Assembly (NCBI GenBank): GCA_026391795.1
Contig: JAPLDI010000004.1
Span: 214,068-278,067, forward strand
From: Bacteroidota bacterium
GTDB taxonomy: Bacteria; Bacteroidota; Bacteroidia; Bacteroidales; FEN-979
DNA: 64,000 nt
Reading direction: 5' to 3'
Shown here: positions 6,942 to 61,768 of the stretch, one piece after another
Position numbering within the stretch: position 1 is the stretch's first letter
How the letters are laid out: each line of letters starts with the position of its first letter
The notes under the pieces: generated by a model
What the model was told of the DNA's origin: nothing
The model's input: the letters and a program-made list of their open reading frames with translations, nothing else
Database searches by the model: none
Program-made: the position numbers and the translations under genes

Positions 6942-7034
6942 GATATATCTCAACCCATCAACTGATTTATTGCGTGCATAAATTGACATTTAGCTTTCTT
7001 CATATCTCCCTATTTTCTAATTGGATAAAATTTT

Positions 7035-7042
7035 TACCTTTG
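7035..7042 (+). promoter_or_regulatory. Putative -7 box TAccTTTG upstream of nuoA
   Basis: ttttTACCTTTGcggcc, 30 nt before ATG; no well-spaced -33 TTTG seen. Confidence 0.4.
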
Positions 7043-7071
7043 CGGCCAACTATCTGTTAACTGAATAACAT

Positions 7072-7422
7072 ATGAGTGCTGAAAGCCTGATTTTATTCTT
7101 TATTGTCGGGGCATTTCTGGTAGGTGGCGCCCTCGTCTTCTCCAGTTTTATTCCTCCCACTTCAACCAATCCACAGAAATCTGAAACCTACGAATGCGGC
7201 ATCCCCACCGAGGGATTGTCATGGCTTCAGTTCAATGTCGGGTACTACCTCTTTGCAATTATTTTCCTGGTATTCGATGTTGAAACGGTATTTATTTTTC
7301 CATGGGCGAAGGTTATGAAGGAAACAGGGATGATCGGTTTCGTTGAAATCGTCATTTTCTTTTTTGTCCTGGGTATTGGTTTGCTTTATGCCTGGAAGAA
7401 AGGAGCATTAAAATGGGAATAA
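7072..7422 (+). CDS. nuoA: NADH-quinone oxidoreductase subunit A (locus 1)
   Basis: [44 protein letters not shown]. Confidence 0.96.
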
Positions 7423-7964
7423 AGAACATGAAAGAAAAGGATTTCCGGGATAACGAAACCCTTGAATCCTTCAAAAAAACCGGCCAGGGGATCCTTCTTA
7501 CGACCATCGATGACATCATCGACTGGGGCCGCTCAAATTCTGTCTGGCCATTGACCTTCGCAACCAGCTGTTGCGGTATCGAAATGATGGCCACAGGCGC
7601 TTCACGTCACGACTTTGCCCGGTTCGGGATTGAGGTGTACCGTGCAAGTCCCCGCCAGGCCGATGTAATCGTAGTGGCAGGAACCATCGTAAACAAGATG
7701 GCCCCGGTCCTCAAGAGGCTTTACGACCAGATGTCGGAGCCAAAATATGTGATTGCAATGGGTGCCTGCGCCGTTTCCGGCGGACCTTTCTACTATAATT
7801 GTTACCATGTCGTCAGGGGTGTTGACCATGTCATCCCGGTGGATGTCTATATCCCCGGCTGCCCTCCGCGTCCCGAAGCTCTTCTTTATGGCGTCATGCA
7901 GTTGCAACGCAAGATCAAACTTGCACACATCACTGATGCAGTTAAAATCCAAAAAGTTAAATGA
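7413..7964 (+). CDS. nuoB: NADH-quinone oxidoreductase subunit B (locus 1)
   Basis: [42 protein letters not shown]. Confidence 0.97.
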
Positions 7965-7976
7965 TTTAGCTCTACC

Positions 7977-8435
7977 ATGGATCTCGAAAAATTAAAGGAA
8001 AGAGTACTTACCCTTGTTCCCGAAGCAGAATTTGAAGAAAACAAACAGTTCCTCACGTTCTTTCTACCCGCCGGGAAGCTTCATGCAACGGCACTGCGGC
8101 TGAAAGAAGATACGGATACCGCTTTTGATTATCTCTTCTGCCAGAGCGGCACCGATATGGTCAAGTACCTCATGGTGGTTTACCACCTTGAATCCACAAG
8201 CCTTGGACATTCGCTTGTTATGAAAGTAAAGACCGAAGACCGCGAAACCCCTGCATTCGACACGGTTTGTGATATCTGGCGAACAGCCGAATTTCATGAG
8301 AGGGAGATCTATGACCTTCTCGGAATCCGGTTTACCAACCACCCCGACCTCCGCCGGATTTTCCTGGATGAGAACTGGGCCGGTCATCCCCTTAGAAAAG
8401 ATTATCAGGACGAAGTAAACATCGTTGAATTTTAA
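7977..8435 (+). CDS. nuoC: NADH-quinone oxidoreductase subunit C (locus 1)
   Basis: FHEREIYDLLGIRFTNHPDLRRIFLDENWAGHPLRKDY. Confidence 0.96.
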   Translation: MDLEKLKERVLTLVPEAEFEENKQFLTFFLPAGKLHATALRLKEDTDTAFDYLFCQSGTDMVKYLMVVYHLESTSLGHSLVMKVKTEDRETPAFDTVCDIWRTAEFHEREIYDLLGIRFTNHPDLRRIFLDENWAGHPLRKDYQDEVNIVEF

Positions 8436-8437
8436 GT

Positions 8438-9565
8438 ATGAAAGAAGTCATCCATACCCCTGTTCCCTCCGTTGAAGAAGAGGAATATCACATCAATATG
8501 GGGCCACAGCATCCGTCAACGCACGGAGTGCTCCGGTTGGTAGTTTCCCTCCAGGGAGAGATCGTAAAGAACCTGAAACCGCATTGCGGTTACATCCACC
8601 GCGGGATGGAAAAGATGTGCGAAAAAGACACCTATCCCCAGATCATTCACCTGACCGACCGGATGGACTATCTTTCGGCGCACATCAACAACCATGCAGT
8701 CTGCCTGCTGGTGGAAAATGCCCTGCAGATCGAAGTTCCTGAAAGGGTTAAATACATCCGCACCATCATGGACGAACTCTGCCGGATCCAGTCTCACCAG
8801 CTCTGGTGGGCAAGCTTCGGGATGGACCTCGGCGGACTGACCTGCTTCTTCTACGGACTGAGAGACCGGGAAAAGATCCTCGACATATGGGAAGAAACAA
8901 CCGGCGCACGGTTCCTTCAGAGTTATTATACACCGGGCGGGCTGATGTGGGACATTCATCCCGATTTCCAGAAAAACGTTAAGGCATTCATCAAGTATTT
9001 CAGGAAAAAGATCAGGGATTATGAAAAGATCCTTTCCGGTAATGTGATTTTTACAGAACGTTCAAGGAACATCGGCCTCATGACCAAAGAGGAGGCAATC
9101 TCCTATGGCGTGACAGGTCCTTCCGGAAGAGGCTCCGGCTGGTCATGTGATATCCGGAAACACCATCCGTATGCTCTTTATGATAAGGTTGAATTTAAAG
9201 AAATACTTTACCACGAAGGCGATACCCTTGCCCGGTACATGGTGAGAATGGACGAAATGTACGAATCGATGCACATTATTGAACAACTCATCGATAACAT
9301 TCCCGAAGGAGATTTTTCGGCTAAAATGAAAGCCGTAATCAAACTGCCGGCCGGTGAATATTATCAGCGGGTGGAAAGTGCCCGGGGCGACCTCGGCATA
9401 TACTGTATCAGCGATGGTAATAAAACGCCTTACCGTATGAAGTTCCGTACACCGAGCTTCAGCAACCTTTCAGTTCTTGATCATATCAGCAGGGATCTGA
9501 AAATTGCCGACCTGGTTGCCATCGGCGGCTCCCTCGATCTAGTTATTCCGGATATTGACAGATAA
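8438..9565 (+). CDS. nuoD: NADH-quinone oxidoreductase subunit D (locus 1)
   Basis: [35 protein letters not shown]. Confidence 0.97.
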
Positions 9566-9575
9566 TACATTCAAT

Positions 9576-10673
9576 ATGGCTTCTACTAATATCTATGACA
9601 ATTTTGTAACCTCATTAACGCAGTCGATCCACAATGGGCTTTACAGTTCAATGTCTCCCACCTGGGCGCTCATTACGGAACTGGCCATCATCGGGTTTGT
9701 GTTCCTGATGTTTTATGCGCTGGTCGGCCTCTTCCTGGTTTATGCCGAACGGAAGGTCTGCGCATTCATGCAAAACCGGGTAGGCCCAAACCGGGTAGGA
9801 AAGTACGGCATCTTTCAAACCATTGCCGATTTCATTAAATTGCTGATGAAGGAATTGGTGGTTATTAAAAATTCCGATAAACTGCTCTTTACCCTTGCGC
9901 CTTTCATCATCATCATCGCTTCTTTTATGGCGGTAGCTGCTATTCCTTTTGCAAAAGGGCTTCATGCCATCGACTTTGACATCGGCATCCTTTATGTGAT
10001 TGCTGTTTCATCATTGGGCGTTGTAGGTGTGCTGTTGGCAGGATGGTCGAGCAACAACAAATATTCACTTATCGGTGCAATGCGAAGCGGTGCACAGATC
10101 ATCTCCTATGAATTGTCGGTCGGGATGTCGCTGCTCACGATTGTTATCCTGGCAGGAACCATGCAGTTTTCTGAAATTGTTCAGGGTCAGGAATTCGGAT
10201 GGTTTATTTTCAAGGGACATATTCCAGCCGTTATCGCCTTCCTGATTTTCCTGATAGCATCCACCGCTGAAACAAACCGCGGACCTTTTGACCTTGCCGA
10301 AGCCGAATCTGAATTGACAGCCGGTTTCCATACCGAATATTCCGGCATCAAATTCGCCTTCTTCTTCCTGGCCGAATACATGAATATGTTCCTTGTCGCC
10401 TCCATCGGTGCAACGATCTTCCTCGGAGGCTGGATGCCTTTTCATGTTTCCGGCTGGATCGGGTTTAACCAGGTAATGGACTACATTCCACCTACTTTCT
10501 GGTATCTTGGCAAAACGGGATTTATCATCTTCCTGATGATGTGGTTCAAATGGACGTTCCCGCGACTGAGGATCGACCAGCTTCTGACCCTCGAATGGAA
10601 ATACCTCTTACCCATCAACCTTTTCAACATTCTCCTGATGGCATTTATAGTATTAATGGGTTGGCATTTTTAA
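9576..10673 (+). CDS. nuoH: NADH-quinone oxidoreductase subunit H (locus 1)
   Basis: [63 protein letters not shown]. Confidence 0.97.
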
Positions 10674-10676
10674 ACT

Positions 10677-11159
10677 ATGAACAGCTTCTTCAACTATTTC
10701 GCAGATATTTTTTCCGGTGTGAAATCCCTTCTGATAGGGATGAGCGTAACCGGTAAATATTTTTTCAGCCCCGGGCAGATCGTGACACAACAATATCCCG
10801 AAAACCGGAAGACCCTCAAGATGTATGAGCGGTTCAAGGGCGAAGTAATCATGCCGCACGATGCGAACAATCATCACCGGTGTACCGGTTGCGCCATCTG
10901 CGAGCTGAATTGCCCCAACGGATCCATCGAAATCGTTTCGGCACGGATCGACGGCCCCGACGGGAAAAAAGTACGGGTCATCGACAAACACATCTACCAC
11001 CTCGGGATGTGCACTTTCTGCAGCCTTTGCGTGAAGACCTGTCCCGAAAATGCATTGGCGTTCGGACAGGAATTCGAGCACGCGGTTTTTGACCGTTCCG
11101 TACTGACAAAGATTTTAAATCAACCGGGTTCATCCATTATAAAAGGTACTGAAGAATGA
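10677..11159 (+). CDS. nuoI: NADH-quinone oxidoreductase subunit I (locus 1)
   Basis: CTGCAICELNCPNGSI and CTFCSLCVKTCPENAL, two 4Fe-4S motifs. Confidence 0.96.
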   Translation: MNSFFNYFADIFSGVKSLLIGMSVTGKYFFSPGQIVTQQYPENRKTLKMYERFKGEVIMPHDANNHHRCTGCAICELNCPNGSIEIVSARIDGPDGKKVRVIDKHIYHLGMCTFCSLCVKTCPENALAFGQEFEHAVFDRSVLTKILNQPGSSIIKGTEE

Positions 11160-11665
11160 CGAACAATCAGATCATGTTTTTTATCTTTTCGGCGGTCATA
11201 GTGATCTTCTCCATACTGACCGTGACCAGCCGACGGATTTTACGGGCCGCTACCTTCCTGCTGTTCGTGCTCGTTTCCACTGCCGGGCTCTATTTTATGC
11301 TCCGTTTCAACTTCCTGGCCGCCATTCAGCTTACGCTCTATGCCGGCGGTATCGTCGTGCTGATCATCTTCTCGATCCTTCTGACGAGTCAGGTTGGAGC
11401 CAAACTGGAGTTGCCGGGGCTCTCAAAGAAGATCTACGCCCTAATAGCTGCTGCGGCGGGAGCAGCGTTGTGCATCTGGACCATCCTGCAATACAATTTT
11501 CCCCGCACTTCCATCGAAAGCGGACGGACAAGTATTGACGACATCGGAAAGGCACTGACCAGTACCGGGAAATACGGATACGCACTCCCTTTTGAGGTGA
11601 TCAGTATCCTGCTGCTGGCCGCCATGATCGGGTCCATTGTTATTGCCAAGAAAAGAAAAGATTAA
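11156..11665 (+). CDS. nuoJ: NADH-quinone oxidoreductase subunit J (locus 1)
   Basis: Membrane protein with FNFLAAIQLTLYAGGIVVLIIFSILLT. Confidence 0.95.
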   Translation: MTNNQIMFFIFSAVIVIFSILTVTSRRILRAATFLLFVLVSTAGLYFMLRFNFLAAIQLTLYAGGIVVLIIFSILLTSQVGAKLELPGLSKKIYALIAAAAGAALCIWTILQYNFPRTSIESGRTSIDDIGKALTSTGKYGYALPFEVISILLLAAMIGSIVIAKKRKD

Positions 11666-11685
11666 CGAATTTAACATTCATTCCC

Positions 11686-12003
11686 ATGTTTGAAGGAGTT
11701 CCATTAAACTGGTTTCTGATCACAGCCACCCTGATGTTCTTTATCGGCATTTATGGCTTCCTGGTCCGCAAAAACCTGATCACAATGCTGATGTCACTCG
11801 AACTGATCCTGAATTCCGTGAACATCAATTTTGTGGCATTTAACAAGCTGCTTTACCCGCAACACCTCGAAGGCATGTTCTTCACGGTTTTTATCATTGC
11901 GGTTGCCGCTGCCGAAGCATCTGTAGCCATCGCTATCATCATCAACATTTACAGGCGACTGGTCAACATTGATGTTGAGAATATGAACGAAATGAAAAAT
12001 TAA
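11686..12003 (+). CDS. nuoK: NADH-quinone oxidoreductase subunit K (locus 1)
   Basis: GIYGFLVRKNLITMLMSLELILNSVNINFVAF. Confidence 0.96.
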   Translation: MFEGVPLNWFLITATLMFFIGIYGFLVRKNLITMLMSLELILNSVNINFVAFNKLLYPQHLEGMFFTVFIIAVAAAEASVAIAIIINIYRRLVNIDVENMNEMKN

Positions 12004-12030
12004 CGATCCCGTCAGCGGGAGACTAACAAT

Positions 12031-12055
12031 AATTCGTAATTCGTAATTCGTAATT
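12031..12055. repeat. AATTCGT heptamer tandem repeat, about 3.5 copies, in the nuoK-nuoL gap
   Basis: aattcgtaattcgtaattcgtaatt. Confidence 0.9.
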
Positions 12056-12063
12056 TTTAAGAT

Positions 12064-13986
12064 ATGATCAATTTCGGTTATACAGTCTGGATCGTTCTGA
12101 TACCGCTTTTCTTATTCATCCTGATCGGCTTTTTCGGGCACAAGTTCAAACCCATTGTCTCCGGCATCATTGGCACATCAGGCCTTTTTGCTTCCATGGC
12201 GATATCCTATTTTACTGCCTATCAATACTTTTTTGTTTTGCCGAAAGTCGGCGAAACCTTTGTGAAGGTCATCGGATTCGAAACCACATGGCTAAGGTTC
12301 ACGGAAAAACTCGTAATCCACCTCGGCGTGCTGCTCGACCCCATCTCCGTGATGATGCTGATCGTGATCACCACCGTATCATTCATGGTTCATCTCTACA
12401 GTATAGGTTACATGGAAGGGGAAAAGGGCTATATGCGGTTTTTCTCTTTCCTTTCCCTGTTCAGCTTTTCGATGCTCGGGCTCGTGGTGGCAACCAACAT
12501 CTTCCAGATGTACATCTTCTGGGAACTCGTGGGGGTTTCGTCGTACCTGCTGATCGGATTCTATTATACAAAAGACACTGCGGTCGCTGCCTCCAAAAAG
12601 GCTTTCATCGTTACCCGTTTCGCCGATCTTGGTTTCCTCATCGGGATCCTGCTCCTGTCGTTTAACACCGGGACTTTTGATTTTATCACCCTTACAGATC
12701 CCAAAGGTGCCGCTATTGCTCAGGGAAGCGGGATCATGTTCCTCGGACTCTCAACCATGACCTGGTCCATGATCTTTATCTTTATGGGAGGCGCCGGAAA
12801 GTCGGCGATGTTCCCGCTGCACATCTGGTTGCCCGATGCCATGGAAGGCCCCACACCGGTGTCCGCCCTGATCCACGCCGCCACGATGGTTGTTGCCGGC
12901 GTTTACCTTGTGGCACGCCTTTTCCCGATCTTCCATTTTTCTGCTCCCGTCGCCCTCGATGTGGTCATGTATGTCGGGGCATTCAGTTCGATCTTCGCGG
13001 CCGTTATTGCCTGTACCCAATTCGACATCAAACGGGTATTGGCCTATTCCACGATGTCGCAGATCGGGATGATGATGTTTGCACTCGGAGTGTCGGGATA
13101 CGGTGAAGAAGCCGGACTTGGATTCATGGCTTCCATGTTCCACCTGTTCACCCATGCTTTCTTCAAAGCACTCCTCTTCCTCGGTGCCGGTGCGATCATC
13201 CATGCGGTGCACAGCAATTACATGAACGAAATGGGCGGATTGAGGAAACACCTTCCCATTACCCACATCACCTTCCTGATCGCCTGCCTTGCCATTGCAG
13301 GGATTCCTCCGCTGGCAGGATTCTTCAGCAAGGATGAGATCCTGGCGGCCAGCCACCAGAAAGCCATGTGGATATTTATTCTCGGACTTATCATCTCAGG
13401 CCTCACCGCCTTCTACATGTTCAGGCTTTACTTTTCGATCTTCTGGGGGAAAGACCAGCATTATCACCATACGCCTCATGAAGCCCCGAAGGTAATGACC
13501 ATTCCCCTGATGCTTCTTTCACTGGGTGCCATCTTCGCAGGACTCCTTCCCTTTTCATCCTTTGTTACTTCCGACGGGAAACCGTTTGCATCGCACATCG
13601 ACATGGCAATAGCCATACCCGCAGTCCTGGTGGGGGTTATCGGAGCCCTGACAGCAATGGTTTTTTATCGGAAAGAAACCAACATTCCCGAAAAAATATC
13701 AGGCTTTCTGGGAGGATTTTACCGTGCCGCTTTCCGGAAATTCTATATCGATGAAATTTATCTGTTTATCACACGGAAGATTATCTTCAATTACGTTTCC
13801 CGCCCGATTGCCTGGTTCGACCGCCATATCGTGGATGGCTCGATGAACGGAATTTCCTATGTAACGAATGAAGTTTCCGGCCGGATCAAGGGTCTTCAGT
13901 CCGGACAGTTGCAGACGTACGCATGGGTTTTTGTTACCGGAGCTGTAGCCCTGGCGCTGACATTCATTTATTTATGGACCAATTAA
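12064..13986 (+). CDS. nuoL: NADH-quinone oxidoreductase subunit L (locus 1)
   Basis: GAGKSAMFPLHIWLPDAMEGPTPVSALIHAATMVVAGVYLVAR. Confidence 0.97.
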   Translation: MINFGYTVWIVLIPLFLFILIGFFGHKFKPIVSGIIGTSGLFASMAISYFTAYQYFFVLPKVGETFVKVIGFETTWLRFTEKLVIHLGVLLDPISVMMLIVITTVSFMVHLYSIGYMEGEKGYMRFFSFLSLFSFSMLGLVVATNIFQMYIFWELVGVSSYLLIGFYYTKDTAVAASKKAFIVTRFADLGFLIGILLLSFNTGTFDFITLTDPKGAAIAQGSGIMFLGLSTMTWSMIFIFMGGAGKSAMFPLHIWLPDAMEGPTPVSALIHAATMVVAGVYLVARLFPIFHFSAPVALDVVMYVGAFSSIFAAVIACTQFDIKRVLAYSTMSQIGMMMFALGVSGYGEEAGLGFMASMFHLFTHAFFKALLFLGAGAIIHAVHSNYMNEMGGLRKHLPITHITFLIACLAIAGIPPLAGFFSKDEILAASHQKAMWIFILGLIISGLTAFYMFRLYFSIFWGKDQHYHHTPHEAPKVMTIPLMLLSLGAIFAGLLPFSSFVTSDGKPFASHIDMAIAIPAVLVGVIGALTAMVFYRKETNIPEKISGFLGGFYRAAFRKFYIDEIYLFITRKIIFNYVSRPIAWFDRHIVDGSMNGISYVTNEVSGRIKGLQSGQLQTYAWVFVTGAVALALTFIYLWTN

Positions 13987-13998
13987 ATTGTTGAACGA

Positions 13999-15507
13999 AT
14001 GGATATCCTGACCTCATTTATTGTAATTCCGTTTCTTACCATTGCCGGGCTCGTGTTCTGCAAGGATCATAAGCAGGTCAAGCTGACCGCAGCCATTGGC
14101 ATGGGCATCCAGCTGATCCTGGCTGCGGTCCTTATCATCCTCTTCCTGAGGGAGCGAGCAGCAGGAAACATGGCCGAGATGCTCTTTGTAAAAGACCTGG
14201 TTTGGTTTCCGAGCCTGAATATTCATTATCTCATCGGGGTTGACGGTATTTCGGTTGCCATGATCGGACTTACCTCCATTGTCATCTTTGCGGGGATCTT
14301 TGCCTCCTGGGAAGTGGTGGAGCTGCCTAAGGAATTCTTTATCTTTCTGATCCTCCTCTCTTCCGGGGTATTTGGTTTTTTTATCTCTCTCGATCTCTTT
14401 ACCCTGTTCCTCTTTTATGAAATTGCCGTGATCCCGATGTACCTGCTGATCGGCATCTGGGGTACCGGTCCGCGTGAATATTCAGCGATGAAACTTACGC
14501 TCATGCTGATGGGGGGATCTGCCCTGATCCTGGTGGGGTTGCTGGGTTTATATTTTAATTCCAACCCGTCGGGTGGACAGCTTACATTCAGCCTTCTGGC
14601 TATTTCCAAGGTGCATATTCCGGTTGAGATCCAGAAGTTTTTCTTCCCCTTTCTCTTCATCGGTTTCGGAGTGCTCGGCGCCCTTTTCCCTTTCCATACA
14701 TGGTCGCCCGATGGTCATGCCTCTGCACCTACTGCTGTTTCGATGCTTCATGCAGGGGTACTGATGAAGCTCGGGGGTTACGGCTGTTTCCGCGTTGCCG
14801 TGTTTTTATTACCCGAAGCAGCGCACGAATTGGGATGGATCTTCATCATCCTCACTACGATCAGCGTCATTTATGGCGCCTTCGGCGCCATCTGGCAGAA
14901 AGACCTTAAATACATCAATGCTTATTCCTCAGTGAGCCATTGCGGGATGGTGTTGTTTGCCATTCTGATGTTCAACAAAACCGCAATGACCGGTGCTGTA
15001 CTGCAGATGATCTCCCACGGTATCATGACAGCCCTTTTCTTTGCCCTTATCGGGATGATCTACGGACGGACCCATACCCGTTACATCAACGAAATGGGCG
15101 GACTCATGAAGGTAATGCCTTTCCTTGGCGTTGCATACGTAATCGGCGGTCTTGCATCCCTCGGTCTTCCCGGATTCAGCGGATTTGTGGCCGAGATGAC
15201 CATCTTCGTTGGTGCATTCCAGAATGTAGATGCTTTCCACAGGGTAGCCACTATTATTGCCGTCTCCTCCATCGTGGTGACAGCGGTTTATATTCTGCGT
15301 GTCGTGGGAATCCTTTTACTGGGCAAGATCAACAATGAACATTATGAACACCTTGGCGATGCAAAATGGTATGAACGGCTGAGTACCGGTGTGCTGATCT
15401 TCGGGATAACCGCGATCGGAATGGCACCCTTGTGGTTGTCGGAAATGATCAATGGCGGACTGGGCCCCATCATCCAGCGGTTGCTGATGGCATCCCCGAT
15501 TCATTAA
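13999..15507 (+). CDS. nuoM: NADH-quinone oxidoreductase subunit M (locus 1)
   Basis: FPFHTWSPDGHASAPTAVSMLHAGVLMKLGGYG. Confidence 0.97.
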   Translation: MDILTSFIVIPFLTIAGLVFCKDHKQVKLTAAIGMGIQLILAAVLIILFLRERAAGNMAEMLFVKDLVWFPSLNIHYLIGVDGISVAMIGLTSIVIFAGIFASWEVVELPKEFFIFLILLSSGVFGFFISLDLFTLFLFYEIAVIPMYLLIGIWGTGPREYSAMKLTLMLMGGSALILVGLLGLYFNSNPSGGQLTFSLLAISKVHIPVEIQKFFFPFLFIGFGVLGALFPFHTWSPDGHASAPTAVSMLHAGVLMKLGGYGCFRVAVFLLPEAAHELGWIFIILTTISVIYGAFGAIWQKDLKYINAYSSVSHCGMVLFAILMFNKTAMTGAVLQMISHGIMTALFFALIGMIYGRTHTRYINEMGGLMKVMPFLGVAYVIGGLASLGLPGFSGFVAEMTIFVGAFQNVDAFHRVATIIAVSSIVVTAVYILRVVGILLLGKINNEHYEHLGDAKWYERLSTGVLIFGITAIGMAPLWLSEMINGGLGPIIQRLLMASPIH

Positions 15508-15563
15508 CACAAGTTACCCAGAGGTAAAAAAGATAAAAGATAGTAACAATAAAATAGAGACCG

Positions 15564-16973
15564 ATGCTTATAATGAGACATGAATTGCTGCTGGTTACCA
15601 TCACGGTAATTCTTTTGCTTGTCGAGATCTTTCTGCCCCATGACAAGAAGCATAAGATCATCCTTCCGGCCATTTTATTAATGGGACTGGTAACGATTGC
15701 CGGTTTCATTCCCGGCCCTACCGGAATTCTTTTCGGCGGAATGTACGGAACATCTTCCCTGATCCTCCTGATGAAAAACATATTGAACATCGGGGTCTTC
15801 ATCATTTTCGTACAGTCTGTTTCCTGGCTGAAGCTGGAAGAACAGAAGGAAAAAATCAGCGAGTTCTTCATTCTTCTGCTATCCACCCTGATCGGGATGG
15901 ACTATATGATTTCATCCGGTGATTTCCTGATGTTCTACCTGGGCCTCGAACTGGCTACGATTCCTTTAGCTACGCTGGCTGCATTTGAACGTTACAAGGA
16001 AAAATCAGCAGAAGCCGGGGTGAAGTTGATCTTTACCTCTGCCTTGTCGTCCGGAATTCTTTTGTACGGACTTTCCATGATTTACGGAACCACCGGTACG
16101 GTTTATTTCCCTGAAGTTTCTGCAGCTTATACCGCTGCACCGCTTCAGATCCTGGCTTTCATCTTTTTCTTTGCCGGAATGGCCTTCAAGATCTCCCTCG
16201 TTCCGTTCCACCTCTGGGCTGCTGACGTGTATGAAGGAGCCCCCATCAATGTCACTTCCTATTTGTCGGTTATTTCAAAAGGAGCTGCTGCCTTCATCTT
16301 CATGATCATCTTATACACGGTTTTCAATAAAATAGCCCTGATGTGGAGGGATGTGATCTATGTCATCGCCATTCTGACCATGACCCTGGGTAACCTTTTT
16401 GCGATGCGTCAGCGAAACATCAAGCGATTCCTGGCATTTTCATCCATCGCACAGGCTGGGTTTATCCTTCTTGGTATCATCGGGCAGAGCCAATTGGGAA
16501 TGACCACCGTGGTTTATTTCGTGCTGATCTATATTTTTTCCAACCTGGGGGCATTCGGCGTTGCTGCCATCATTTCCAACAAAACAGGTAAGGAGAGCAT
16601 TGATGATTATGATGGATTTTACCGTACCAACCCCTTGCTGAGCCTCACCATGATGCTGGCACTATTCTCGCTGGCGGGCATTCCCCCTGTGGCCGGTTTC
16701 TTCGGGAAATTTTTCCTCTTTGCTTCCGCTGCAAAACAGGGAATGTACATCCTGGTTTTTATTGCTGTACTGAATACGATCATTTCCCTGTATTATTACC
16801 TGCTGGTGATCAAAGCCATGTTCCTGAACCGCAGCGATCAGCCGATCGGCTATTTTAAAAGCGACGGGTACACTAAATTCGGACTGGCCATGTGTGTTGC
16901 AGGTATCATCATCATCGGATTGGCCAGCCCTGTATATGAGTTTATCCTGAAACTGAGCTACGGCCTCTATTAA
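15564..16973 (+). CDS. nuoN: NADH-quinone oxidoreductase subunit N (locus 1)
   Basis: MAFKISLVPFHLWAADVYEGAPINVTSYLSVISKGAA. Confidence 0.96.
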   Translation: MLIMRHELLLVTITVILLLVEIFLPHDKKHKIILPAILLMGLVTIAGFIPGPTGILFGGMYGTSSLILLMKNILNIGVFIIFVQSVSWLKLEEQKEKISEFFILLLSTLIGMDYMISSGDFLMFYLGLELATIPLATLAAFERYKEKSAEAGVKLIFTSALSSGILLYGLSMIYGTTGTVYFPEVSAAYTAAPLQILAFIFFFAGMAFKISLVPFHLWAADVYEGAPINVTSYLSVISKGAAAFIFMIILYTVFNKIALMWRDVIYVIAILTMTLGNLFAMRQRNIKRFLAFSSIAQAGFILLGIIGQSQLGMTTVVYFVLIYIFSNLGAFGVAAIISNKTGKESIDDYDGFYRTNPLLSLTMMLALFSLAGIPPVAGFFGKFFLFASAAKQGMYILVFIAVLNTIISLYYYLLVIKAMFLNRSDQPIGYFKSDGYTKFGLAMCVAGIIIIGLASPVYEFILKLSYGLY

Positions 16974-23606: not shown

Positions 23607-23640
23607 TGAATTGATACAGGAGGAGGAATCCTCAAAGTTC

Positions 23641-23676
23641 AAAACGAGCTGTCATGATTTTATGACAGCTCGTTTT
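23641..23676. terminator. Intrinsic (bidirectional) terminator after tonB
   Basis: AAAACGAGCTGTCAT-gatttt-ATGACAGCTCGTTTT: perfect 15-bp stem, 6-nt loop. Confidence 0.92.
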
Positions 23677-23800
23677 GTGTTCACAGACTAACAGAAAAAT
23701 GCATTTTTTGAAATCGAAGTACTGACAAGGGAAATGGGGTTATCAGTTGAAATAATTCCCACTTTCATTAATTTAGAATATTTCCAAAAGAAACTTTTTA

Positions 23801-23808
23801 TAATTTTG
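23801..23808 (+). promoter_or_regulatory. Putative -7 box TAatTTTG upstream of hdrC
   Basis: ttTAATTTTGtattg about 100 nt before ATG. Confidence 0.35.
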
Positions 23809-23907: not shown

Positions 23908-24480
23908 ATGATAACACTTGGATTGCTGGAGAAAAATACTTTTCTGGAAGCTGTCAACAAAAAAAGCGGCGCCAATGTGCTTGAATGTTACCAGTGCGGG
24001 AAGTGCGTTTCCACCTGCCCGGTATCTTCTTACATGGATTTTCCCCCGAGAGAGATTATGCAAATGATCAAACTTGGATTGAAGGAAGAGAGCTACATGG
24101 CCAATTCGATGTGGTTCTGCCTTACCTGTTCTGCCTGCAGCGGCCGGTGTCCGCGGGAAATTGACATTCCTGCTGTTATGGAAGCCATCCGCCATCTTGC
24201 CATCGAGGAAAATTACAGATCTGAAAACAAAAAAGTTAAAGATATCCGCAAGTTTCATGATATTTTCCTTGACATGATCAAACGTTACGGGCGGAATTAT
24301 GAACTGCGTATGATGGCAGAATTTAATATCCGTACCCGGAACCTCTTTAAAGATATGCACCTTGCACCAAAGGCCCTGCTCAAAGGCAAGATCCCGATTG
24401 GCCATGAATCCACGAAGAGCGCCAAGGCCATCCAGAGAATGTTCAAGCTTGCAGGAAAGCTTGAAAAAGAAAAGAGATAA
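23908..24480 (+). CDS. hdrC: Heterodisulfide reductase subunit C-like 4Fe-4S protein
   Basis: CYQCGKCVSTCPVSSYMDFPPREIMQMIKLG; CLTCSACSGRCPREIDIPAVMEAIR. Confidence 0.9.
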   Translation: MITLGLLEKNTFLEAVNKKSGANVLECYQCGKCVSTCPVSSYMDFPPREIMQMIKLGLKEESYMANSMWFCLTCSACSGRCPREIDIPAVMEAIRHLAIEENYRSENKKVKDIRKFHDIFLDMIKRYGRNYELRMMAEFNIRTRNLFKDMHLAPKALLKGKIPIGHESTKSAKAIQRMFKLAGKLEKEKR

Positions 24481-24516
24481 AGATCTTTCACTCCTATTCT
24501 ACTCAATTGAATTGAC

Positions 24517-25461
24517 ATGAACAAACTAACCTATTTCCCGGGTTGTTCTGCACACGGTACCAGCGAGGAATTCGACCACACGCTCAAGCTTGTGATGAAG
24601 ACCCTGGATGTGCAGATGGAAGAGATCCCCGACTGGAACTGCTGCGGGGCCACATCCGCCCACGTCATGACCGAGAACCTGGCGCTTGCATTGCCCATGC
24701 GCAACCTTGTGCTCGCCGAAAAGCTTGAAAACAAAACCATGGGTATCGCATGTGCTTCCTGTTATTCGAGAATGAAAGGCACGAAGAAGCACCTGGATGA
24801 AAATCCAGAACAGGCTAAGCGGATCAACAGCACCGTAATCGACGAAGGAGAATACCAGGGCACCGTGGAGATCAAATCGATGCTTCAGTATTGCTTTGAG
24901 GAGATTGGGCTGGAAACCATCAAAAGCAAGGTAACCAAATCACTCTCAGGTCTCAAGGTGGCTTGTTACTATGGCTGCCTGCTTACCCGCCCTAAAGATG
25001 TTACCCAGTTTGATTCGCCCGAATATCCGATGTCGATGGACCTTCTGATGGAAGCCCTGGGTGCAAAGGCGATGGAGTTCGATTTCAAAACGGAATGTTG
25101 TGGTGCCTCCTTCTCCATTTCAAATACAGAGGTCGTGGAATCCCTGACAGGAAAGATCCTGGAAGTGGCAAAAGAAAGCGGAGCCCACCTGATCGTGGTC
25201 GCCTGCCCATTGTGCCAGTCGAACCTCGACATGCGACAGCCGGATATCGAAAAGCATTCAGGGAAGAAACTGGATATCCCGGTGATGTACTTCACGCAGT
25301 TGATGGCCCTGGCCTTCGGATATCCCGAGAAGGAACTACGCCTTCCAAAACACATTGTCCCGGTTGAGGCCGCCTTGAAACACATTGGCGACCCTGTACC
25401 GGAACCTGAAAAAGTGAAAAAAACCAAAAAAGCTGTCGAAGCAGAAAGCGAGGTAGAATAA
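24517..25461 (+). CDS. hdrB: Heterodisulfide reductase subunit B-like protein with two CCG domains
   Basis: PGCSAHGTSEEF...DWNCCGATSAH...CASCYSRM; ACYYGCLLTRP...TECCGASFSI...ACPLCQSNLDMRQ. Confidence 0.93.
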   Translation: MNKLTYFPGCSAHGTSEEFDHTLKLVMKTLDVQMEEIPDWNCCGATSAHVMTENLALALPMRNLVLAEKLENKTMGIACASCYSRMKGTKKHLDENPEQAKRINSTVIDEGEYQGTVEIKSMLQYCFEEIGLETIKSKVTKSLSGLKVACYYGCLLTRPKDVTQFDSPEYPMSMDLLMEALGAKAMEFDFKTECCGASFSISNTEVVESLTGKILEVAKESGAHLIVVACPLCQSNLDMRQPDIEKHSGKKLDIPVMYFTQLMALAFGYPEKELRLPKHIVPVEAALKHIGDPVPEPEKVKKTKKAVEAESEVE

Positions 25462-27434
25462 TGGCCAGAGTAGGTGTTTTCGTTTGTTATTGCGGAGCTA
25501 ACATTGCCGACTTCATTGACGTTCCGGCAGTGGTGGAAGAAGCAAAGAAAATAAAGGAGGTCAAGATCTCCGTTCTTTACAAGTATATGTGTTCCGATCC
25601 CGGGCAGGGAATGATCCGGGATGCCATCGTGCAAAACCGGCTTACATCGGTGGTTGTTGCCGCCTGTTCTCCCCGGATGCACGAAAAAACATTCCGCAAG
25701 GCATTGTCGGATGCCGGGATGAACCCGTACATGCTGGAAGTTGCCAATATCCGGGAACACTCCTCCTGGGTGCACCAGAAAGATAAAAAAGCGGCAACGG
25801 AAAAAGCCAACGACCTCATCCGGATGGCAATCGCCAAATCCATCGCCAATGAACAGTTGCACGAGATTTCTGTTCCTGTAACAAAACGGGCACTCGTAAT
25901 CGGGGGGGGTATTGCAGGGATCCAGGCAGCGCTCGACATTGCAGATGCACGCATACCGGTCACATTGGTAGAAAAAAGTCCCTCCATTGGCGGCCGGATG
26001 GCCCAGCTTGACGAGACTTTTCCAACCCTCGACTGCTCACAGTGCATTCTCACTCCAAAGATGGTGGATGTTGCATCGCACCCTTATATTGAACTGATTC
26101 CCTATTCAGAGGTAATCGAACTTGATGGCTATGTAGGGAATTACAAAGCCAAAATCAAAAAAAAGGCATCCTACGTTGATTTCAGTTCCTGCACAGGCTG
26201 CGGGGCATGTACACAGAAATGTCCGGTAAAGGTTCCCAACGAATTCAACATGAACATCGATAAGCGGAAGGCCATTTATACACCCTTTCCGCAAGCGGTT
26301 CCCAACAAACCGGTCATTGATGCCACACATTGCACTATGCTCCTGAAGGGAAAATGCGGTATTTGTGCAAAAGTCTGTGAAAAAGGATCCATCAACTTTA
26401 AAATGGTAGATGAGGTCATTGAAAGGGAAGTCGGTGCCGTGGTCATCGCTACCGGCTATGATCTCTGGGATCCAAAGCCCTATGAAGAATATGGTGTTGG
26501 CCGCTACAAGGATATCATCACGTCACTTGAATTTGAACGGATGGTCTCTGCAAGCGGTCCGACCAATGGCGTTCCCATCCGCCCGTCGGACGGGAAAGTT
26601 CCGAAGAATGTTGTTTTCATCAAATGCATCGGATCTCGTGACGAGGCCAAGGGCATTGAATACTGTTCCAAGATCTGCTGCATGTATACAGCCAAGCATG
26701 CGATCCTGCTGCACCACAAGGTACACGACAGCCATGCCTATATATTCTATATGGACATCCGCGCTGCCGGCAAGGGATATGAAGAATTTGTGAAGCGCGC
26801 CCAGGTTGAAACAGCAGCTACCTACCTGCGCGGAAGGGTGTCGAAGATCTACAAAAAGGGTGATAAACTGATGGTCAGGGGAGAAGATGCCCAGATCGGG
26901 CAGGTGGTGGAAGTCGAAGCCGACCTTGTGGTATTGGCAACCGCCGTGATCGCTCCGAAAGACAATCCCTCCCTGGCAAGGTTACTCGGTGTCTCTTACG
27001 ACAAATACGGGTATATGTCGGAAGCACATCCCAAGCTTCGTCCTGTTGAAACCGCCAAAGCCGGGATCTTCCTGGCCGGATGCACACAGGCTCCCAAAGA
27101 TATTCCCGATACTGTCGCCCAGGCTTCTGCCTGTGCTGCCAAAGTTTGTGGTTTATTCGCCGGGGACACGCTGAAAAAAGATCCGATGGTCTCAACGATC
27201 AACAACGAATTTTGCAGCGGATGCCAGAACTGCGTAAAGGTTTGTCCTTACCAGGCCATCGTTACCGAAGAAATCCCGCTGGGGCATGGTTCGAAAGAGT
27301 TGCGCACCGTTGCCAAGATCAATGAAGGCGTATGCCAGGGATGCGGTTCCTGTGTCGCCATCTGCCGCAGTATGGCCATCAACCTGGCTGGTTTTACCGA
27401 TCCTCAAATCATTAACGAGATAGTCGCAATCTAA
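25461..27434 (+). CDS. hdrA: Heterodisulfide reductase subunit A-like flavoprotein
   Basis: GVFVCYCGANIADFIDVPAV; FAD motif GGGIAGIQAALDIADARIPVTLVEKSPSIGGRMAQLDETFPTLDC; multiple 4Fe-4S motifs. Confidence 0.95.
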   Translation: MARVGVFVCYCGANIADFIDVPAVVEEAKKIKEVKISVLYKYMCSDPGQGMIRDAIVQNRLTSVVVAACSPRMHEKTFRKALSDAGMNPYMLEVANIREHSSWVHQKDKKAATEKANDLIRMAIAKSIANEQLHEISVPVTKRALVIGGGIAGIQAALDIADARIPVTLVEKSPSIGGRMAQLDETFPTLDCSQCILTPKMVDVASHPYIELIPYSEVIELDGYVGNYKAKIKKKASYVDFSSCTGCGACTQKCPVKVPNEFNMNIDKRKAIYTPFPQAVPNKPVIDATHCTMLLKGKCGICAKVCEKGSINFKMVDEVIEREVGAVVIATGYDLWDPKPYEEYGVGRYKDIITSLEFERMVSASGPTNGVPIRPSDGKVPKNVVFIKCIGSRDEAKGIEYCSKICCMYTAKHAILLHHKVHDSHAYIFYMDIRAAGKGYEEFVKRAQVETAATYLRGRVSKIYKKGDKLMVRGEDAQIGQVVEVEADLVVLATAVIAPKDNPSLARLLGVSYDKYGYMSEAHPKLRPVETAKAGIFLAGCTQAPKDIPDTVAQASACAAKVCGLFAGDTLKKDPMVSTINNEFCSGCQNCVKVCPYQAIVTEEIPLGHGSKELRTVAKINEGVCQGCGSCVAICRSMAINLAGFTDPQIINEIVAI

Positions 27435-27922
27435 TGGAAACTGAAGTAAAAGAAGCTCAAGGGAAAATTATCAGTGCAGAGAACCCGGATATCGTTGCCC
27501 CCGCCGATTGGCAGCCGGTGATCATGGGGATTCTGTGCAACTGGTGTTCCTATGCCGGTTCCGACCTTACAGGGACCTCGCGTATACAATATCCGCCCAA
27601 CATCCGGATCATACGCGTGCCCTGCTCCTCAAGGGTTGATCCATGGTTTATCATCAAGTCGTTGCAGACCACGGCCGACGGGGTGCTGATTTCGGGGTGT
27701 CATCCCGGTGACTGCCATTACATTTCGGGTAATTATTTTGCCCGCAGGAGGTTTCTGGTGACAAAGAAGCTGCTGAATTTTGTCGGGTACCACGAAAACC
27801 GTGTTCAATTCTCATGGGTTTCGGCTGCCGAAGGACCAAAATTTGCGAAAGTGGTGGCCAAGGTAACCGAAGACATCAAGAAGTTAGGACCTCTTCACAG
27901 ATATAAAAAGGAAAATTTCTGA
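27434..27922 (+). CDS. MvhD/FlxD-like [2Fe-2S] subunit
   Basis: ILCNWCSYAGSDLTGTSRIQYPPNIRIIRVPCSSRVDPWFIIKSLQTTADGVLISGCHPGDCHYISGNYFARRR. Confidence 0.92.
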   Translation: METEVKEAQGKIISAENPDIVAPADWQPVIMGILCNWCSYAGSDLTGTSRIQYPPNIRIIRVPCSSRVDPWFIIKSLQTTADGVLISGCHPGDCHYISGNYFARRRFLVTKKLLNFVGYHENRVQFSWVSAAEGPKFAKVVAKVTEDIKKLGPLHRYKKENF

Positions 27923-27924
27923 TA

Positions 27925-28776
27925 ATGGACCATTCAAAACAAATCCAGGACATCGCGTCGAAGCTCTTTGCCGAGAACAAGATCGATTATTTTGTCGGGT
28001 ACAGGCAGAACGCTATCGACGACAGCCAGGTTCCTTACCTGATCTCGGATCCGGCAGAGATCCCAAGGCTTGTATTTACAGACCGGTCGGTTTTCAACCT
28101 GGCCAACTACCTGAAGCCGGAACATACCAGGAGGAAACGGGTAGGATTGGTTGTAAAGGGTTGCGACAGCCGTGCCCTGAACCTGATGCTGACGGAAAGC
28201 CAGGTTAAACGTGAAAATGTATACATCATCGGGATCTGCTGCGAAGGTGTATTGAACGAAAAAGGGGAGAAAGCCCAGAATTGCATCGAATGTGTGATGC
28301 CCGACGCGGTTGTGTATGACGAGATGATCGGAACACCGACCGGAAAAAGGGAGTACATTGTCAATGCCGATATCAAAGAACTTGCAACAATAGCACTGGA
28401 AAAAAGGGCTGATTATTTTGAGGACATCTTCTCGAACTGCATCCGGTGCAATGCCTGCCGCCATTCCTGCCCGCTGTGTTATTGTGCCAAATGTTGTATC
28501 GACCAGGAAACATCCACGCTTTATCATGGTGCCAATACTTCCTCAGGCGCGATGCATGCCCTGATGACATGGTCGCTTCACCTGGCCGGGCGATGTGTGG
28601 ACTGCCGCAATTGCGAAAAAGCCTGCCCCAGCCATCTGCCGTTGCACCTGCTGCATAAGCAGAATGAGAGTGTTATCTATGAAAACTTCCAGCAGCATCT
28701 TGCAGGAATGGAAAAAGATGACCGAGGCGCTTTCTACAAATACAGCCTGAGTGACCCTGATGATTTTATCTTATAA
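27925..28776 (+). CDS. 4Fe-4S protein of the FlxB/FlxC (FrhB/FdhB-like) type
   Basis: CIRCNACRHSCPLCYCAKCC; CVDCRNCEKACPSHLPLHLL; VKGCDSRALNLML. Confidence 0.8.
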   Translation: MDHSKQIQDIASKLFAENKIDYFVGYRQNAIDDSQVPYLISDPAEIPRLVFTDRSVFNLANYLKPEHTRRKRVGLVVKGCDSRALNLMLTESQVKRENVYIIGICCEGVLNEKGEKAQNCIECVMPDAVVYDEMIGTPTGKREYIVNADIKELATIALEKRADYFEDIFSNCIRCNACRHSCPLCYCAKCCIDQETSTLYHGANTSSGAMHALMTWSLHLAGRCVDCRNCEKACPSHLPLHLLHKQNESVIYENFQQHLAGMEKDDRGAFYKYSLSDPDDFIL

Positions 28777-28787
28777 CACAAAAGACG

Positions 28788-29831
28788 ATGAGCGTTTTCA
28801 TAGTTGAAACAGATAAAGCCGGACTTCAGAAGTTCTATGAGGAGATCATAGGAAAGTTTGAAACCTATGCCCCGGTGGAAAAATTCGACAAGTACGATTA
28901 CAAAAAGGTTTCGAACCTCAGCGAATGCAATCCGGATTCCCCGATTGAAACGACCATGAGCCTAAAGCCACTGTTCTTTCCGAAAACCGCAAAGATCATG
29001 AAGTTTCAGGAGGACAGCAGCGGAACTACGTTGTCGGAAACCGATGAGGATCCCCTTGCCGGCAGCCGTGTGATTCTGGGTGTGAAACATTGCGATGCAA
29101 GGGGGTTGCAGGTGCTTGACCAGGTTTATAACTGGGATTACATCGATACCGATTACCAGAAAAGAAGAATCAACACCGTGATCGTTTCCACACGCTGCGA
29201 CAAAGCCGGTAATCAGTGCTTCTGTACATCGCTGGATTATGATGTGGAAAACTCCGATGCCCACGATGTACGAATTGTAAATGGCCTTGACGGGAAGATC
29301 TACATTCAGGGTGTAACAGAAAAAGGTGAGAAACTCATCAAGTCATCCAGCATCCAGCAGCCGGCATCTGATGGTGCAAAGGATGAACTATCAAAACATT
29401 ACAAAGCCTTTGATGCCTCTTTCCGTCTAAAGATGAATTATACTGAAGTCAACGCGAAACTTCAGAAGCTGTTTGATTCCCCTGAATTTGAGACTGTTTC
29501 CTCGAACTGCATCAGTTGCAACACGTGTGCTTTTATTTGTCCGACGTGCCATTGTTTCAAGATCTCGGATGAAAAAATCAAAGACACCGGGGTCCGTTAT
29601 AAGAGCTATGATTCCTGCAACAACGGTTATTTTACCCTGATGGCAGGAGGGCATAATCCCCGCCCGGTAAAATACCGCAGGTGGAGGCAGCGGTCGCTTC
29701 ATAAATTCGTGTATTATAAGGAACGGTTTGGTATGAACCTGTGTGTGGGGTGTGGGCATTGCGCCATCTCCTGTCCGGTGAATATCAGCATTTTTGATGT
29801 AGTCAACCAGGTTTCAAAAATAATGCAGTAA
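28788..29831 (+). CDS. 4Fe-4S dicluster protein of the FlxB/FlxC / sulfhydrogenase-beta (HydB/AsrA-like) type
   Basis: GVKHCDARGLQVLDQVY; CISCNTCAFICPTCHCFKI; CVGCGHCAISCPVNISIFDVV. Confidence 0.82.
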   Translation: MSVFIVETDKAGLQKFYEEIIGKFETYAPVEKFDKYDYKKVSNLSECNPDSPIETTMSLKPLFFPKTAKIMKFQEDSSGTTLSETDEDPLAGSRVILGVKHCDARGLQVLDQVYNWDYIDTDYQKRRINTVIVSTRCDKAGNQCFCTSLDYDVENSDAHDVRIVNGLDGKIYIQGVTEKGEKLIKSSSIQQPASDGAKDELSKHYKAFDASFRLKMNYTEVNAKLQKLFDSPEFETVSSNCISCNTCAFICPTCHCFKISDEKIKDTGVRYKSYDSCNNGYFTLMAGGHNPRPVKYRRWRQRSLHKFVYYKERFGMNLCVGCGHCAISCPVNISIFDVVNQVSKIMQ

Positions 29832-29835
29832 TTCA

Positions 29836-29857
29836 GAATGCAGGAATGCAGGAATTA
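29836..29857. repeat. GAATGCAG octamer repeat in the gap before the FlxA-like gene
   Basis: gaatgcaggaatgcaggaatta; same family as 6901..6941 in reverse. Confidence 0.65.
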
Positions 29858-29917
29858 GTAAAGTAACAAATTTGTTTTTAATCCGCTGTGGCGGATTTAC
29901 TCCTTTACAAAAATAGT

Positions 29918-30751
29918 ATGGAACAATTACTGGTCCCCTTGATGTGTAAGGTCGATAAGATCATCGATGAAACACCCGATGTCAGAACCTACCGGTTAAT
30001 AATGAACGATCCGGCCAGGATGGAAACCTTTAAATGGATGCCCGGGCAGTTTGTAGAATTCTCGCTGCTGGGTCACGGAGAGTGCACTTTCTGCATTTCA
30101 TCTTCTTCCACCCGCCCCGGTTACTTTGATTGCTCGATCAAACGGGCAGGGGTGGTGACGGCCGATATTCACAGCCAGCTGGAAGAAGGCATGGATGTGG
30201 GAATCCGCGGCCCTTACGGAAACTGGTTCCCGACCGAAGAGATCAAAGGCAAAAACCTTCTCTTTGTTGGCGGAGGTATCGGATTGGCACCCCTGCGTTC
30301 ACTGATCCAGTATTGTATCGATAATCGCAAAGATTACAAGGACTTTACGATCCTTTATGGTGCACGGACCTCTGCCGACATGTGCTACAAGGAAGAAATT
30401 GAAGAATGGAAGAAAAACCCTTCTCTGAAAGTCATCCTGACCATCGACAAACCCGAAGAAACCTGGAAGGAAAATGTGGGTGTGGTTCCGAAGATCCTGG
30501 AAGAGGTGGTAAAGCCTGCTGTCGAAAACACAAAAGTCATTACCTGCGGTCCTCCCATCATGATCAAATACACCCTGGTATCGCTTGATAAGCTCGGATT
30601 CGCCCCGAAGGATGTGATCACCACCCTGGAGATGAAAATGCAGTGCGGACTCGGAAAATGCGGCCGGTGCAACATCGGTTCAACCTATGTCTGCAAAGAT
30701 GGTCCCGTCTTCACCTATGAGCAGCTGAAAAGCCTTCCGGACGAGTTTTAG
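29918..30751 (+). CDS. FAD/NAD(P)-binding [2Fe-2S] oxidoreductase, FlxA / sulfhydrogenase-gamma (HydG/AsrB/PyrK) like
   Basis: GQFVEFSLLGHGECTFCISSS; FVGGGIGLAPLRSLIQYCIDN; CGLGKCGRCNIGSTYVCKDGPVF. Confidence 0.88.
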   Translation: MEQLLVPLMCKVDKIIDETPDVRTYRLIMNDPARMETFKWMPGQFVEFSLLGHGECTFCISSSSTRPGYFDCSIKRAGVVTADIHSQLEEGMDVGIRGPYGNWFPTEEIKGKNLLFVGGGIGLAPLRSLIQYCIDNRKDYKDFTILYGARTSADMCYKEEIEEWKKNPSLKVILTIDKPEETWKENVGVVPKILEEVVKPAVENTKVITCGPPIMIKYTLVSLDKLGFAPKDVITTLEMKMQCGLGKCGRCNIGSTYVCKDGPVFTYEQLKSLPDEF

Positions 30752-58934: not shown

Positions 58935-59483
58935 ATGGAAGCAGCGAAATACATAAAAGTTGATCCTCCTGAAGGTTATTCTTCACCGGGACTTTTCGCC
59001 ACAACGTTCGACAGGGTTGTAGGGCTGGCACGGAAGAACTCCATCTGGCCATTGCCGTTTGCCACTTCCTGTTGCGGGATCGAGTTTATGGCGACGATGG
59101 GAGCGCATTATGACCTGGGAAGGTTTGGTGCGGAGCGGCTCAGTTTCAGTCCCCGGCAGGCCGATCTGCTGATGGTGATGGGAACCATCGCGAAAAAGAT
59201 GGCACCTGTCGTCCAGCAGGTATATGTACAGATGGCCGAGCCCCGCTGGGTGATCGCTGTAGGCGCATGTGCGGCAAGCGGCGGGATCTTTGATACCTAC
59301 AGCGTTTTGCAGGGGATCGACCGGATTGTCCCGGTTGATGTGTATGTGCCCGGATGCCCTCCGCGTCCCGAACAGATCATCGACGGATTTATGAAAGTGC
59401 AGGAACTGGTCGGGCAGGAATCGCTCCGAAGAAGATATTCAAAAGAATACAAAGACTTACTGGAAAGTTACGGAATCCGTTAA
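58935..59483 (+). CDS. nuoB: NADH-quinone oxidoreductase subunit B (locus 2)
   Basis: [55 protein letters not shown]. Confidence 0.97.
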
Positions 59484-59499
59484 CAGGTTCGCTATTTCA

Positions 59500-59994
59500 A
59501 TGGATAATGCATTCATCACCGGCAAACTGAAAACACGCTTCACAGAGGATATCCTTTCTGTTGATGAAAAGGGCGACATGCTTACGGTAACGGTTAACCG
59601 GAAAGTGATCCATGAGGTGATACGGTTCCTGAAAGAAAATGAATCGCTTGGATTTACCTTTCTCACGACCCTTTGCGGCATTCATTACCCGGAACAGGAA
59701 TTACAGCTCGGGGTGGTTTATCACCTGCACCGGTTTTCGGAAAACACGCGGATACTGGTAAAAACATTTATCCCCCTGGATAATCCGGTGGTTCCGACGG
59801 TTACGGACGTGTTCTCTGCTGCCAACTGGATGGAACGGGAAACGTTTGATTTTTACGGGATCATTTTCGAGGGTCACCCCAACCTCAAAAGGATCCTGAA
59901 TGTTGAATACCTTGATTATTTTCCTTTGCGGAAGGAATACCCGCTCGAAGACCCGACACGGGAAGACAAGGATAACCGGTTTTTCGGAAGATGA
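59500..59994 (+). CDS. nuoC: NADH-quinone oxidoreductase subunit C (locus 2)
   Basis: WMERETFDFYGIIFEGHPNLKRILNVEYLDYFPLRKEYP. Confidence 0.95.
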   Translation: MDNAFITGKLKTRFTEDILSVDEKGDMLTVTVNRKVIHEVIRFLKENESLGFTFLTTLCGIHYPEQELQLGVVYHLHRFSENTRILVKTFIPLDNPVVPTVTDVFSAANWMERETFDFYGIIFEGHPNLKRILNVEYLDYFPLRKEYPLEDPTREDKDNRFFGR

Positions 59995-61163: not shown

Positions 61164-61195
61164 AAGAATTACGAATCAGGAATTAGGAATTACGA

Positions 61196-61768
61196 ATGGA
61201 TGGATTGATAAATCATCGGTTGTATAAGAAAGAGAACAAGATTGTCAGGTTCTCTGAAGAGACACTGAAGCGTATCGCTGGGATCATTCTTCATTATCCC
61301 GCGGACCGGAAAAAATCAGCCTTATTGCCGGTCCTGCACATTGCGCAACAGGAACTGGGAGGATATCTGAGTGTGGATGTGATGGATTATGTTGCATCAC
61401 TGCTGGAAATTCAGCCGGTTGAGGTGTATGAAGTTGCCACTTTCTACAGCATGTTCCATCCCGAACCGGTAGGAAAATACCTGATCGAGGTATGCCAGAC
61501 TGGTCCCTGTGCACTTTGTGGTGGCGAACACATCCTTGATCATCTTGAAAATGTGCTCGGTATTACGAATGGCGGGACTACCTCCGACGGCATGTTTACG
61601 CTGAAAACCGTTGAATGCCTGGGGTCCTGCGGTACAGCGCCGGTCATGCAGATCAATACAGAATTTTATGAGTCGATGACAAAAGAAAAGGTTGAAAGTG
61701 TCATCCGTGAATTAAAAGAAAAAGATAATCAACAATTTCAGGAAACCCGATGGGCAGAGCTCTTTTAA
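61196..61768 (+). CDS. nuoE: NADH-quinone oxidoreductase subunit E (locus 2)
   Basis: VYEVATFYSMFHPEPVGKYLIEVCQTGPCALCGGEHIL...TVECLGSCGTAPVMQIN. Confidence 0.96.
   Translation: MDGLINHRLYKKENKIVRFSEETLKRIAGIILHYPADRKKSALLPVLHIAQQELGGYLSVDVMDYVASLLEIQPVEVYEVATFYSMFHPEPVGKYLIEVCQTGPCALCGGEHILDHLENVLGITNGGTTSDGMFTLKTVECLGSCGTAPVMQINTEFYESMTKEKVESVIRELKEKDNQQFQETRWAELF

Follow-up and report, generated by a model that had tools for sequence, protein, structure and literature searches.

Positions 23908 to 30751 of the 64,000-nucleotide stretch of Bacteroidales DNA analyzed here (the window), which comes from a distant and uncultured relative of Bacteroides, hold seven genes that the initial annotation read as a FlxABCD-HdrABC cluster, with an inverted gene order and an electron acceptor that may be new.

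The window encodes a complete set of FlxABCD-HdrABC subunits

Seven intact open reading frames lie on the + strand, with short gaps or 1-base overlaps between neighbors, in the order hdrC-hdrB-hdrA-flxD-flxC-flxB-flxA; flxC and flxD are unfused. The genes and the candidate signals upstream of them are as follows.

23640..23677, strand not assigned: terminator-like strong stem-loop between tonB and the hdr-flx operon; 17-bp stem, -25.9 kcal/mol, z -7.2
23801..23808, + strand: candidate promoter TAATTTTG, weak
23908..24480, + strand: hdrC, 190 aa; two [4Fe-4S] motifs
24517..25461, + strand: hdrB, 314 aa; two complete CCG (noncubane [4Fe-4S]) motifs
25461..27434, + strand: hdrA, 657 aa; FAD and [4Fe-4S] clusters; match to 5odc_A, E 1e-217
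27434..27922, + strand: flxD, 162 aa; MvhD/FlpD family; PF02662, E 4e-50; 7bkb_F, E 2e-47
27925..28776, + strand: flxC, 283 aa; FdhB/FrhB-like; eleven invariant Cys; fold matches 7bkb_E and 8rvu_E
28788..29831, + strand: flxB, 347 aa; sulfhydrogenase-beta/AsrA-like; 9nez_B, E 3e-38
29918..30751, + strand: flxA, 277 aa; FAD/NAD/[2Fe-2S] reductase of the PyrK/AsrB/SH-gamma type; 9nez_C, E 7e-56

The start of flxA is most likely the ATG at 29918, since the resulting 277 aa is the length of flxA in relatives; a GTG at 29888 is an alternative start. The candidate promoter fits the Bacteroidota -7 consensus, TAnnTTTG, and is rated weak because no -33 TTTG was seen; a scan for sigma-70 promoters and terminators gave a yield not above chance.

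All seven proteins carry the complete set of expected cysteine ligands. HdrC has two CX2CX2CX3C motifs, HdrB has two full CCG motifs (C10/42/43/79/82 and C154/194/195/230/233), and HdrA combines the FAD motif GGGIAG with ferredoxin clusters. The ligands of FlxD, an MvhD-like protein, are C35/38/64/89/94, motif reading assigns two clusters apiece to FlxC and FlxB, and FlxA, with its FAD, NAD, and [2Fe-2S] domains, has a CX4CX2CX7C motif.

Profile searches with each protein returned two CCG matches, HdrA2/HdrA models (E 1e-244 to 1e-171), FlpD (E 4e-50), and SH-beta/AsrA-like and SH-gamma/AsrB-like matches for FlxB and FlxA. When the PDB was searched by sequence, HdrA aligned end to end with its methanogen counterpart in 5odc (E 1e-217), FlxB was matched to the beta subunit and FlxA to the gamma subunit of sulfhydrogenase 1 (9nez), and FlxC matched the cluster-bearing portion of the FdhB-like subunit in archaeal Hdr complexes (7bkb_E); the PDB relatives belong to archaeal Hdr complexes and to sulfhydrogenase 1. 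An AlphaFold model of the FdhB-like FlxC also matched 7bkb_E and 8rvu_E, which we take as support only, the model being moderate (pLDDT 64). Because profiles, PDB sequence matches, and synteny agree for every subunit, we conclude that the window encodes a FlxABCD-HdrABC NADH dehydrogenase/heterodisulfide reductase of predicted activity. The identification made in the initial annotation is thus borne out by reading frames, profiles, PDB matches, synteny, and motifs alike.

HdrA, HdrB, HdrC, and MvhD families and their clusters are shared with methanogen HdrABC-MvhAGD and HdrA2B2C2, but the window has an NADH module where methanogens have a hydrogenase or F420 module. A CoB-CoM heterodisulfide reductase was rejected, as scores fell under the NCBIfam cut-offs (HdrA2, 813 versus 1100 bits; HdrB, 190 versus 345; HdrC, 76 versus 160).

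Gene order is standard and the operon is conserved

The order of the genes is not inverted, as had been stated, but is the standard arrangement; the name FlxABCD-HdrABC does not give gene order. In Desulfovibrio (Nitratidesulfovibrio) vulgaris the locus tags run from HdrC (DVU_2404) through HdrB (2403), HdrA (2402), FlxCD (2401), and FlxB (2400) to FlxA (DVU_2399) (PMC10920352), and the operon of Bilophila wadsworthia is written hdrCBA-flxDCBA (PMC12125255). Furthermore, among 80 named loci, 40 from Bacillota, Armatimonadota, Desulfobacterota including Desulfovibrionaceae, and others have all seven genes in exactly the order of the window, as do loci of 17 genomes of its own family, contig ends aside. 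Co-occurrence of the seven genes in relatives, whose lack would have refuted the initial annotation, is therefore conserved, which argues that the operon is not a chance grouping. The window differs from D. vulgaris in having separate flxC and flxD genes, which are fused as FlxCD in that organism (PMC10920352), and from both D. vulgaris and B. wadsworthia, with which it shares subunits and order, in lacking an adh neighbor and, in its genome, DsrC.

Another 33 family genomes encode an HdrB that aligns along its length with that of the window at 72-93% identity; with the window's own genome counted, 34 of 37 family genomes have Flx-Hdr by this measure, the gene being split into two pieces in G001. 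HdrB of G042, from another family of Bacteroidales, is 70% identical. Counterparts with a name are bins of uncultured Bacteroidales or Bacteroidetes, and several isolate names point to lakes or fen. No conserved partner gene adjoining the operon was found among the loci of relatives compared; tonB/exbBD and a TPR gene lie upstream in many of them, not all. The families and motifs of the window subunits are those of the relatives tested.

Bacteroidota contain a second type of Flx-Hdr (L051, L088, L089, L100, L112, and L114), with the same seven genes and order where loci are long enough; f43 genomes have FlxC. In the FlxC tree a branch 2.07 changes per column long sets the window clade apart from this type, a separation that the long branch could inflate in what is a quick tree with a midpoint root, and the window FlxC is only 26-31% identical to FlxC of other lineages. 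The window family again forms its own clade in the HdrB tree. The second type is a separate clade in both trees, a sign that its inheritance differs from that of the window family. Given the long FlxC branch, the electron donor or the contacts of the complex could differ.

Flx-Hdr is retained independently of DsrC

A PF04358 profile search of the window's genome, which is 95.6% complete, gave no match to DsrC. Among relatives, 34 of 43 family genomes have a DsrC-family protein. Locus reading and a Pfam check separated these into proteins with just one Cys at the C terminus and proteins that have the CX10C pair of true DsrC; the CX10C kind occurs in 19 genomes, its assignment in genomes without locus reading being made from two score groups of the profile search. 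CX10C DsrC is present in 15 of the 34 family genomes with Flx-Hdr and absent from 19, six of which lack any DsrC match, and Flx-Hdr is missing from two genomes that do have CX10C DsrC. This split, together with the latter two genomes, indicates that the flx-hdr operon is retained independently of DsrC.

In the relatives read, the CX10C DsrC gene lies beside genes for a DsrK-like CCG protein and a cysteine desulfurase in a separate sulfur locus, which in several of them also has DsrE, TusA, MvhD, HdrA-like, and Qmo-like genes. A matching locus on contig C33 of the window's genome (72-95% identity) lacks the DsrC-DsrK-desulfurase block. Since this block is missing while Flx-Hdr is kept, and since 19 of the 34 genomes lack CX10C DsrC, Flx-Hdr here probably does not depend on DsrC as its acceptor. 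The suggestion that the acceptor may be new is reasonable and gains ground from these absences, but Flx-Hdr without DsrC is already known from Syntrophomonas BUT1 (PMC6687939), which differs from the window's organism in phylum and physiology; the FlxC clade of the window is a divergent one. DsrC is thus a partner typical of sulfate reducers and does not define the complex.

Instead of DsrC, the acceptor might be a DsrE-like or TusA-like sulfur carrier encoded in the sulfur locus, or a small thiol, with the complex serving persulfide or thiol metabolism. DsrE-like, TusA-like, MvhD-like, and Qmo-like genes are kept together in the genome's own sulfur locus, but that locus is unlinked to the flx-hdr operon, and we consider this assignment unlikely, if worth keeping in view. 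Bacillithiol is an unlikely acceptor because BshC was not found in the window's genome.

The full sulfur-transfer locus was seen in L139 (8538-19995), L141, L143, and L146, and its counterpart on C33 spans 6913-15827 of L053. The full locus encodes CX10C DsrC, a DsrK-like CCG protein, cysteine desulfurase, DsrE, TusA, an MvhD-like protein, an HdrA/GltD fusion, and Qmo-like subunits. The second DsrC paralogue, with the single C-terminal Cys (L140, 9358-9666; L141, 8888-9196), adjoins DsrE-like and sulfide:quinone reductase-like genes.

Flx-Hdr and Rnf are almost mutually exclusive among the Bacteroidales compared

RnfC is found in most other families of Bacteroidales, and a profile search found none in the window's genome. 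Across 61 Bacteroidales scored for Flx-Hdr and strong RnfC matches, 35 had Flx-Hdr only, 20 had Rnf only, 1 had both, and 5 had neither (Fisher P = 1.6e-10, a value that ignores kinship). When Flx-without-Rnf lineages are counted by family there are only about three (f1, f7, and f18); the signal comes mostly from one family, so that independent events are few, and absences in draft genomes can stem from gaps. G010, of the same family as the window, has RnfC and lacks Flx-Hdr, and G022 and G440 carry both systems. Across 393 Bacteroidota there is no phylum-wide exclusion (13 with both, 69 Flx-Hdr only, 35 Rnf only, and 276 neither; P = 0.26). The near exclusion in the 61 genomes suggests that, in this part of Bacteroidales, Flx-Hdr has taken over from Rnf the linking of NADH and ferredoxin; we do not read it as holding generally. 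That syntrophs without Rnf obtain ferredoxin through Flx-Hdr has already been proposed in print (cited in PMC6687939); the literature searched contained no such report for Bacteroidales.

From established Hdr chemistry we infer the mechanism, that is, everything beyond the cofactor inventory. NADH would pass a hydride to FlxA (FAD and [2Fe-2S]), and electrons would reach the HdrA FAD by way of the FlxB and FlxC clusters and then the FlxD [2Fe-2S] cluster. At this FAD the electron pair would be split, one electron going through the ferredoxin domains of HdrA to ferredoxin and the other through HdrC and the two noncubane clusters of HdrB to reduce a disulfide; run in reverse, by confurcation, the complex would make NADH. 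Flx-Hdr would in this way feed or drain a ferredoxin pool common to HydABC-type hydrogenases and perhaps the nearby 11-subunit complex I. On the evidence of gene content and motifs, we think it probable that the complex serves as an NADH-ferredoxin link in place of Rnf, bifurcating or confurcating, with a disulfide that is not obligatorily DsrC. The stricter proposal, that the family's divergent Flx-Hdr has taken over NADH-ferredoxin coupling from Rnf and also uses a disulfide or acceptor other than DsrC, is tentative, and we put it somewhat short of an even chance. If true, ferredoxin chemistry would no longer be tied directly via Rnf to the membrane ion gradient.

The locus is thus a complete, standard complex of a known kind in a little-studied family and not a new type of system; the absence of DsrC and Rnf makes it a useful test case for two questions, the substrate of Flx-Hdr where DsrC is missing and the substitution of soluble bifurcation for ion-pumping Rnf. 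Close relatives vary in DsrC and Rnf while Flx-Hdr is kept (it is absent in G010), so both questions can be addressed by comparing neighbors.

Less probable readings of the locus

Rather than reducing ferredoxin by bifurcation, the complex could act simply as an NADH:disulfide reductase or produce NADH by confurcation. Sequence does not encode reaction direction, and the D. vulgaris complex is regarded as working in both directions (PMC10920352); however, HdrA still has the motifs of its FAD and ferredoxin domains and is a close match to the bifurcating HdrA of 5odc, and the exclusion with Rnf points to ferredoxin, which together make this reading decidedly unlikely.

We give little credence to an assembly gap, in which Flx-Hdr would partner DsrC as in D. 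vulgaris and dsrC would simply be missing from the sequence. DsrC-family proteins are common in the family, as described above, and DsrC of D. vulgaris binds Flx-Hdr (Ferreira 2023, as cited in PMC10504309), but the completeness of the genome argues against a gap and the sulfur locus on C33 is contiguous, a SufS-like gene (ending at 8409) being followed directly by dsrE (8563) where relatives have the DsrC-DsrK-desulfurase block. Five other genomes (G001, G002, G009, G022, and G027) likewise have Flx-Hdr and no DsrC match.

A relative of the anaerobic sulfite reductase AsrABC is scarcely credible, as FlxB and FlxA do score on the AsrA and AsrB models but under the curated cut-offs (138 versus 323 and 214 versus 289 bits), no siroheme (NIR_SIR) protein was found in the window's genome by profile search, and flxB and flxA share an operon with hdrCBA-flxD.

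Genomic setting

The hydrogenase search proposed earlier found five FeFe-hydrogenase matches in the window's genome, in loci with NuoE/NuoF-like partners, and no NiFe hydrogenase by profile. HydABC-type FeFe hydrogenases occupy three loci (L187 and L188; contigs C42 and C9). A complex I cluster of the 11-subunit type without NuoEFG lies upstream of the operon (window ~7000-16973), and a second one, with NuoEFG, begins near 58.5 kb (window 58935-64000, continued in L055), so that the two flank the flx-hdr operon, one on each side. Another Flx-Hdr, in L089, directly adjoins nuo genes.

Contig C9 also has a third Hdr-like locus (L054, 5164-10123), with hdrC, a 360-aa HdrB, a short HdrA, and a membrane CCG fusion; weak HdrB matches like those of L054 occur in many Bacteroidales genomes. 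In G042, an indolepyruvate:ferredoxin oxidoreductase-like gene, recognized by eye, is divergent from the flx-hdr operon (L050, 8818-9182). In one relative, G006, genes for HdrA/FlxD-like proteins with NuoE, NuoF, and HoxU-like genes lie just upstream of flx-hdr (L042, 616-6374), and this set possibly encodes another bifurcating complex.
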